A DNA stretch of 64,000 nt from Bacteroidota bacterium (GTDB taxonomy: Bacteria; Bacteroidota; Ignavibacteria; Tepidaquicellales; Tepidaquicellaceae), in NCBI GenBank assembly GCA_018266835.1, contig JAFDZP010000002.1, positions 1,029,302-1,093,301 on the forward strand. The letters run 5' to 3'. The position numbers and the translations under genes were made by a program. The notes below the pieces were generated by a model that saw nothing but the letters and a program-made list of their open reading frames with translations, did not search any database and was not told the origin of the DNA. Below, piece by piece: positions 22,338 through 52,708 of this stretch (position 1 is its first letter; each line of letters starts with the position of its first letter).

Positions 22338-22376
22338 AACCACCCCCTTAATCCCCCTCCTTTTCAAGGAGGGGGA
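22338..22376. repeat. dispersed C-rich/G-rich palindrome, copy A
   Basis: AACCACCCCCTTAATCCCC leads into CCCCCTCCTT (22353-22362), which pairs with AAGGAGGGGG (22366-22375) over a 3-nt loop. Three further copies lie at 22508, 27110 and 51687. Confidence 0.85.
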
Positions 22377-50980: not shown

Positions 50981-51163
50981 ATGCAAATAGAACACGAATT
51001 TACCTGCCCTTACTGTTTTGAGAAAATCTCAATTCTTATAGACCCCACTGAAGATCCTCAGGCTTATGTAGAGGACTGCGAAGTCTGCTGCAATCCCATT
51101 GCCATCGCATGTGAAGTCAAAGACGGAGAAGTTATTGACTTTGAAGCGTTTCAAATCGATTAG
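50981..51163 (+). CDS. CPXCG motif-containing cysteine-rich protein
   Basis: A 60-residue protein. The N-terminal CPYCFEKISILID motif and the second CEVCCNPIAIACEV pair give four Cys for one zinc, typical of this small family; the usual Gly after the first pair is Phe here. The acidic C-terminus (GEVIDFEAFQID) is normal. Function is unknown; a free-standing zinc ribbon. Confidence 0.85.
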   Translation: MQIEHEFTCPYCFEKISILIDPTEDPQAYVEDCEVCCNPIAIACEVKDGEVIDFEAFQID

Positions 51164-51396
51164 TTGTCAGTTGCCGGTTATTAGTTGTCAAAAAAAAGTC
51201 GCATTATTGTCGCATTCCGGAACACTGATGTTTATGATTATTATGATGTCACTGATGAATAGTAAATTGTTATTCGCCTTGGCGAATCACATTCTTTAAT
51301 TCCTTTCTGTTTTTAAACAATTCAACTTCTTAATATTTTTCTAAATTGATGAATTTTTGACGGATTCTTCTGCAAAATAAATTGCATCGAGTTGCA

Positions 51397-51503
51397 GGGG
51401 GCGCTCGCACGAACCGAAGGTTCGTTTGCTCAAACTAAAAAATTGAGGAACTCAATTTTTTAGTTTGAGCAAGTCCCGACTTCGTCGGGACGCGAGCGCC
51501 CCC
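51397..51503. repeat. perfect four-way cloverleaf element, 107 nt
   Basis: The outer stem pairs 51397-51408 with 51492-51503 (12 bp, GGGGGCGCTCGC against GCGAGCGCCCCC). Inside it three hairpins abut with no unpaired base: 51409-51415 with 51419-51425 (7 bp, loop GAA), 51426-51447 with 51451-51472 (22 bp, loop GAA) and 51473-51480 with 51484-51491 (8 bp, loop TTC). All pairs are Watson-Crick. It has no T-run. It resembles neither tRNA nor a known riboswitch, and is most likely a non-autonomous mobile or recombination element. Confidence 0.9.
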
Positions 51504-51686
51504 GAATTGCTGCTTACAATATATCAATTTTTATTTTCCGTTCTGAAGTACTTTTACCTATTCCTGCTAATAGGGAAAATAATTTTTAATCGCTTGACAC
51601 AATTTCCTGATAGAAATCATAAGGCTCTACTACATCTTCAAATCAGGAAAGTATCCAAATAAGTTAAGAATTATATTTATGCACTT

Positions 51687-51726
51687 AACCACCCCCTCAG
51701 TCCCCCTCCTTGTAAAGGAGGGGGAA
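51687..51726. repeat. dispersed C-rich/G-rich palindrome, copy D
   Basis: ACCACCCCCTCAGTCCCC leads to CCCCCTCCTT, which pairs with AAGGAGGGGG around GTA. It lies about 53 nt before the trhO start codon. Confidence 0.85.
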
Positions 51727-51778: not shown

Positions 51779-52708
51779 ATGAAAAGAAATGTACGACCTT
51801 ATAGAATCCTGCTTTACTACCTCTATACGAAGATCGAAAATTCAGAAGCATATGCAGAGCTTCATTTAAAATTCTGCAAATCCTTGGGAGTGCTTGGGCG
51901 AATTATAATTGCACACGAAGGTATTAACGGAACAATTTCAGGAACCATCGACCAGACTAACGCATACATTGCTGCAATGCGTATGGACCCGCGTTTTGAA
52001 AAAATGGAGTTCAAAATTGATGAAGCCGATGAACATGCTTTTAAAAAAATGTTTGTAAGACACAGAAGTGAAATCGTTACTATGAACCTTGATGAAGATA
52101 TAGATCCCAATGAAATAAGCGGTAAGAAACTTAAACCGAAAGATTTTTATGAAGCATTACAAAGAGATGATGTTGTTATTGTGGACGGAAGAAATGATTA
52201 CGAGTATGACTTAGGACACTTTCCCAATGCAATAAGACCTGAGGTAAGAGTCTTTAAAGAATTCCCGGATTGGATAAGAAAAAACCGCGAGATGTTCGAA
52301 GGCAAAAAAATCCTCGCCTACTGCACAGGCGGAATAAGATGCGAGAAGCTGACGGGATTATTTTTAAAAGAAGGATTTGAAGATGTAAATCATTTACACG
52401 GTGGAATAATAAACTACGGAAAAGATAAAGAAGTTAAAGGCAAAGGATGGCTTGGCAAATGCTACGTATTCGATGAAAGAATTTCAGTTGATATAAATTC
52501 AGCAGAGCCGCATCAGATCGTTTCAAAGTGTTATCACTGCGGCGAGCCATGTGAAAGATATGTAAACTGCGCTCAGCTTGAGTGCCATGCGCAATTTTTA
52601 TGCTGCGAAGAGTGCGATGTAAAAACAAAACGCTCCTGCTGCGAAGAGCATAAAAATTCAGAGCGCAACGAGTATAACATAAAAGAACGTGAAGCCGCAC
52701 TTTCGTGA
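51779..52708 (+). CDS. trhO: tRNA uridine(34) hydroxylase, rhodanese family
   Basis: A 309-residue TrhO (YceA) protein that makes 5-hydroxyuridine at the wobble position of tRNAs using O2. The N-terminal domain (about 1-95, with [11 protein letters not shown] near 45) precedes the rhodanese domain (about 120-225) with the catalytic Cys C182 in [13 protein letters not shown]. The C-terminal Cys-rich tail ([41 protein letters not shown]) is the metal-binding part usual in this group. Length fits. Oxygen dependence contrasts with PFOR elsewhere in the window. Confidence 0.93.

Follow-up and report, generated by a model that had tools for sequence, protein, structure and literature searches.

A perfectly paired DNA cloverleaf as a probable member of a genus-restricted, REPIN-like family of non-autonomous mobile elements

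The window, a stretch of 64,000 nucleotides from a 4.0-Mb Bacteroidota genome (G000), contains an intergenic cloverleaf. It probably belongs to a family of non-autonomous mobile DNA elements, about 105 nt long, that is confined to a single genus of Ignavibacteria-like bacteria among the genomes searched. The elements would be REPIN-like, would travel as folded strands through an enzyme acting in trans and would keep their pairing mainly by template switching. Table 1 lists the parts of the window element. Its 107 bases form 49 Watson-Crick pairs in four stems closed by three 3-nt loops, with zero G-T pairs and no unpaired base at the four-way junction. The preliminary description had given these coordinates, stems of 12, 7, 22 and 8 bp, loops of GAA, GAA and TTC and all-Watson-Crick pairing, and re-reading of the sequence reproduced each of them exactly.

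Table 1. Parts of the cloverleaf in the window (positions are those of the window)
Feature	Position	Strand	Description
Whole cloverleaf, copy G000a	51397..51503	+ (family orientation, GTCCCG arm at 3' side)	Best model score 109.8 bits
Outer stem, 5' half	51397..51408	+	GGGGGCGCTCGC, 12 bp; pairs with 51492-51503
Outer stem, 3' half	51492..51503	+	GCGAGCGCCCCC; pairs with 51397-51408
Side arm A	51409..51425	+	7 bp, ACGAACC-GAA-GGTTCGT; GNA triloop
Middle arm M	51426..51472	+	22 bp, loop GAA; apex AAATTGA/TCAATTT common to most copies
M-stem basal block	51426..51439	+	Partner 51459-51472; identity about random even where copies agree by 83-92% in the other arms
Side arm C	51473..51491	+	8 bp, GTCCCGAC-TTC-GTCGGGAC; TNC triloop (read as GNA on the opposite strand)

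When positions 51380-51520 were folded with DNA parameters, the energy was -58.4 kcal/mol, compared with -19.8 +/- 2.9 kcal/mol in dinucleotide shuffles (z = -13.3, 0/200). We also scanned 864 kb of G000 (about 22%, including some stretches picked because they hold a copy) for any three-hairpin cloverleaf without regard to sequence, and the well-formed cases were only members of the element family, the other matches being short A+T-rich foldings. A chance origin of the window cloverleaf is excluded.

The neighbours of the cloverleaf are a small open frame, which ends near 51163, on the left and a UPF0176/rhodanese gene, which begins at 51779, on the right, with an M3 peptidase gene upstream and several other palindromic repeats nearby. 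One of these, a C-rich palindrome of the type TCCCCCTCCTTGNAAAGGAGGGGGA (51701-51725, also at 22352, 22523 and 27122), is a separate dispersed repeat found in many intergenic regions of both genomes studied here. The sequence TTTTTGACGGATT(C/T)TTCTGCAAAATAA (51352-51380 in the window; near 1500-1550 of locus L056) stands 15-25 nt to the left of the window copy and of copy f, a close version of it occurs at the ortholog of the f site in the sister species, where there is no cloverleaf, and it may be a promoter-like dispersed repeat. An iteron-like GTCGCATTATTGTCGCATTCC repeat lies at about 51196-51219, and related text is found to the left of copy f elsewhere in the genome.

To find relatives of the element, we compared G000 with the genome of a sister species (G001), the two being all the genomes of the genus in the comparison. 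BLAST returned one copy only in G000 and weak matches in G001, which on reading had the identical architecture with a different sequence. A covariance model built from four aligned copies (R1) found 23 distinct places, all in G000 and G001 and 19 of them outside its training set (E from 2e-17 to 1e-6 for the 19), while its matches in other genomes were few and weak. The BLAST reading of a single copy in G000 was thus rejected, since the covariance model had exposed the limit of BLAST sensitivity. A second model (R2), of 42 aligned rows from 24 copies, most of them on both strands, brought the count to 13 for G000 and 15 for G001; with one further G001 copy that carries an insert, the total is about 29, a number derived from model searches and partial scans. 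Outside the genus, no cloverleaf was found in 391 genomes of the class, a weak negative given strict filters and ten candidates scored per genome. In a pattern scan of GTDB contigs, 80 of the stretches listed were examined, and of these only MAG SZAS-86, the sister genome itself, contained family members. A search for phage, plasmid or viral sources of the cloverleaf gave no match.

All copies have the same order of outer stem, side arm A, middle arm M and side arm C, usually abutting without a linker, and each copy folds alone into the four-stem shape, independent of the alignment. The outer stem is 7-12 bp long and usually starts with GGGGCGC, its best-conserved part. Arm A is mostly 7-10 bp and often carries GAACC, arm M is mostly 17-22 bp with the apex AAATTGA in most copies, and arm C is mostly 7-9 bp, mostly with GTCCCG. 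Sequence differs widely between copies while the shape is kept. In both genomes the pattern of the CGAACC/GGTTCG A-arm hairpin and that of the element end matched inside family members only, except for one unrelated coding match of the A-arm pattern in each genome, and these patterns, which have partial sensitivity, found no arms as free hairpins outside the family.

Individual copies depart from this plan in several ways. In the insert-bearing copy (L284, about 525-665; G001:C1:72024) the M arm keeps a 7-8 bp base and about 60 nt replace its apex, which suggests that the interior of the cloverleaf can hold extra sequence. About 3 bp above its base, the M stem of G001e, G001i, G000k, G001m and others, though not of the window copy, shows a small recurrent mismatch; by analogy with the extrahelical bases of attC, it could mark strand identity. 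Copy G001o (L213, 1208-1336) has a partial second GTCCCGC hairpin within its A arm, which has the look of a scar left by template switching or nested insertion. Several mismatches are present in copy G001f.

The alignment of 42 rows shows how strictly the fold is kept. Standard pairs fill 96.9% of its cells; after shuffling the share is 58.1%, and shifting the partner by 1-3 columns lowers it to 38-48%. Changes on both sides are seen at each of the 48 modelled pairs, and there are 726 double-changed cells against 15 one-sided standard changes; these absolute counts are inflated because rows of either strand entered the alignment, which had been fitted to R1. Among the 24 copies in a single orientation, 95.0% of pairs are Watson-Crick and 1.2% are G-T. 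Loops of 3 nt close 67 of 84 arms (80%), and 51 of these 67 triloops are GNA or TNC, with both orientations occurring in the same arm among copies. In comparison hairpins from both genomes, 29 of 90 loops were 3 nt long. Of the 29, 11 were GNA or TNC, but some of the 11 are family arms met again from a second locus, and the share is put at about a quarter to a third. Among DNA minihairpin loops, GNA triloops are known for exceptional stability.

Covariation at all modelled pairs of a four-stem fold, in an element that often lies close to a stop codon (1-23 bp in many copies), is also what a small RNA or an mRNA leader or trailer selected for its fold would present. Selected RNA stems usually pass through G-U. 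That change in RNA stems runs through G-U is stated as the common belief in PMC8794818. The family has only about 1% G-T/G-U pairs and few one-sided changes beside its double ones, its ends carry no consistent T-run, and its neighbours are unrelated genes in every orientation. There was no credible Rfam match, and sub-threshold miRNA-like matches fell on the long hairpin only. GNA and TNC triloops, in either orientation, suit DNA hairpins. We consider a structured RNA very unlikely. An intrinsic terminator was rejected: with flanks read by eye, a run of at least 4 T within 8 nt was present at about 4 of 56 ends. Taken together, the full double-sided change, the G-T share of about 1% and the GNA/TNC loops point to a fold that is maintained as DNA and not as RNA.

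The basal block of the M stem behaves differently from the rest of the element. Among the most alike copies, in which the outer stem and side arms are 83-92% identical and the M apices are mostly conserved, identity in the basal block is about 0.4-0.6 (mean 0.46), two pairs of copies reaching 0.7, and the block pairs almost perfectly despite this near-random identity. The block is either the sole part free of constraint beyond pairing or a part rewritten as a block. The idea that it is a guide copied from the target was rejected, as the block had no excess match to the flanks of its own copy. It is conceivable, though distinctly unlikely in our estimate, that the family is mobile by recognition of shape, in which case the strand with its four-way junction would be the substrate and part of the M stem would be replaced on its two sides while the element moves or is repaired, leaving a copy-specific basal block in a conserved frame.

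Where the copies lie bears directly on the preferred reading of a REPIN-like mobile family. The copies are intergenic, with unrelated neighbour genes in every orientation and with several to many of them 1-23 bp from a stop codon; a bias of their strand against replication direction was looked for, but the skew was too weak to read one. We located the orthologous regions of the two species by concatenated flank proteins and then aligned the flanks. At about 12 sites only one of the two species carries an element: the G001 site is empty for G000 copies a (that of the window), b, c, e, f, g and j, and the G000 site is empty for G001 copies b, c, e, i and j. A cmsearch with E up to 10 over the syntenic loci returned the shared sites and one weak extra match only. 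Similar copies also occur at unrelated sites (G000k with G001i; G000c with G001e), which argues for movement. No target-site duplication is seen, direct repeats at the junctions being not clearly above the shuffled expectation and none of them reaching 5 nt, and the flanks at empty sites are too diverged for insertion junctions to be read to the base. From the distribution of the copies and their presence or absence, the family is probably mobile. The preliminary description had put forward a non-autonomous mobile structured element, to be looked for as several copies with compensatory stem changes at unrelated positions and as empty orthologous sites. This much of its reading is supported: the covariance models recovered about 29 copies at unrelated intergenic sites with such changes in their stems, and about 12 syntenic sites are occupied in just one species.

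Three sites, d, h and m, are occupied in both species, m having one syntenic flank only. At site h the same stop codon lies at a distance of 12 bp from the element in one species and of 11 bp in the other. Paired positions changed on both sides and on one side number 22 and 2 at site d and 29 and 0 at site h, and the d and h copies are no more alike across species than random pairs. Judged by position, common descent with full turnover is likely at d and h; with similarity at the random level, turnover in situ is indistinguishable from independent insertion at a preferred site. An inversion at site m, given its single syntenic flank, is suggestive only.

The three common sites, the conserved fold and the spaced intergenic copies, about 13-16 per genome, would also suit a DNA site that serves the host as a cruciform bound by a junction- or bend-recognising protein in nucleoid organisation, replication or segregation. 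Most of the checked sites, however, are unshared between the species although the flanking genes are syntenic, and the element is absent from every other genus tested, so that we regard a host-serving site as decidedly improbable. Alternatively, the elements may be mobile and keep their pairing solely by selection at transposition, misfolded copies being immobile, without any template-switch repair. The several mismatches of G001f are what would be expected of an ageing copy under such selection. Almost all copies, however, are near-perfect and yet mutually very different, including those at the shared sites d and h, and a given arm has GNA loops in some copies and TNC loops in others, as would be expected from spacer inversion. 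Maintenance by selection only appears to us rather unlikely, and a mobile family with template switching is preferred.

REPINs, the closest known system, are mobilised by RAYT (TnpA-REP) enzymes, which are related to the IS200/IS605 Y1 transposases. Pfam PF01797 had no match in G000; RAYT protein queries and NF047646 then gave two RAYT genes in G000 and three in G001, and the absence of Y1 enzymes from G000 as read from PF01797 was rejected. Since RAYTs are present in both genomes, Y1 activity is available. No cloverleaf lies within about 2-2.5 kb of a RAYT gene in any of the five neighbourhoods, all of which carry other palindromes. The palindrome sets differ from gene to gene (L294-L298): GTTCCCACGC/GCGTGGGAAC, CATTCCCAAAC/GTTTGGGAATG, GTTGGTC/GACCAAC and CTTCCCAACG/CGTTGGGAAG. 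At L296 (about 2418-2465; G000:C1) a REP palindrome beside the RAYT gene has a second, C-arm-like hairpin, TGTCCCGCTTTTAGCGGGAT, inserted in its loop, and such a hairpin within a hairpin is a possible route to multi-arm structures. Searches of both genomes with the end and A-arm patterns, at partial sensitivity, found no longer autonomous relative with the same ends.

Like REPINs, the cloverleaf elements are gene-less, dispersed intergenic units of about 100 nt that fold into hairpins. REPINs have an alternative 'clover' fold of two REP hairpins and a spacer hairpin, with compensatory changes in the spacer (PMC3116915). Given this three-hairpin drawing, the size and intergenic placement and the RAYTs of both genomes, the copies may be true REPINs of a lost or unrecognised RAYT lineage, with the side arms as diverged REPs and the middle arm as the spacer hairpin. 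Whereas REPINs have inverted identical REPs, the cloverleaf has two unlike side arms: arm A and the reverse complement of arm C are 0.48 identical within elements and 0.49 between them and are not inverted copies. The REPIN tag, counted anywhere in the core, is rare (GTAG in just 2 of 28 copies, CTAC in 3 of 28), and CGTC or GACG occurs in 14-16 copies, again counted anywhere in the core and not at a fixed position at the arm foot. Further differences from REPINs are the near-perfect pairing throughout, the sequence diversity of the copies, the low copy number and the lack of an adjacent cognate RAYT, the RAYT genes being surrounded by other palindromes. We consider true REPINs unlikely; the cloverleaf may work like a REPIN, by analogy, and membership among REPINs is not claimed.

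Other systems share some of these features. With MITEs and ERIC/RU-like repeats the family has in common a terminal inverted repeat (GGGGCGC...), the lack of coding sequence, dispersal and presence or absence between relatives, whereas its interior consists of three abutting hairpins, and it shows neither a target-site duplication nor an autonomous relative found with the same ends. Parvovirus-type T-shaped terminal repeats and integron attC sites are fold-defined DNA with small abutting arms, of which the folded strand is recognised; in contrast to these, the cloverleaf copies have no linked replicon, cassette or recombinase. A conserved structure with weak sequence conservation, as in attC, would also fit a tyrosine-recombinase site, whether attC-like or of another kind, that is recognised on the folded strand. 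The copies, however, have no cassette arrangement or adjacent gene cassettes, their flanks are unrelated, and they carry three side-by-side arms with no fixed extrahelical base in most copies, which makes such a site extremely unlikely. Quasi-palindrome correction and template-switch hairpins show complementary arms, inverted loops and double-sided changes without intermediates, as the family does (PMC8794818, PMC8604942), but they are known on single hairpins, while the cloverleaf is a four-stem unit in many dispersed copies.

We propose that an enzyme supplied in trans acts on the folded single strand and that the element spreads in this way through intergenic DNA. The moving form would be folded single-stranded DNA, and a Y1/HUH-type enzyme is the leading candidate for the mobiliser. 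In resident copies, pairing would be restored mainly by template switching during replication, through homogenisation of the arms and inversion of the loops, and selection for foldability would act when copies move. Template switching is reported to homogenise the arms of inverted repeats and to invert their spacers (PMC8604942, PMC8794818), and it is by analogy with this published precedent that the maintenance step is suggested. Counting against the proposal, the RAYT genes found stand among different palindromes of their own, and sequence conservation across copies is weak for recognition by an enzyme, unless recognition is by shape.

Perfect pairing, changes on both sides of each modelled pair and a near lack of G-T in diverse copies are what is expected when a fold is maintained at the DNA level, and they are rarely so clean. 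Covariation, the usual proof of a structured RNA, can arise from DNA. The two sister genomes supply about 29 natural replicates, with which it can be asked if template switching is enough by itself to keep hairpins perfect, if transposases select shape over sequence, and how multi-arm palindromes arise. The family offers a natural system in which to study DNA that is perpetuated through its fold.
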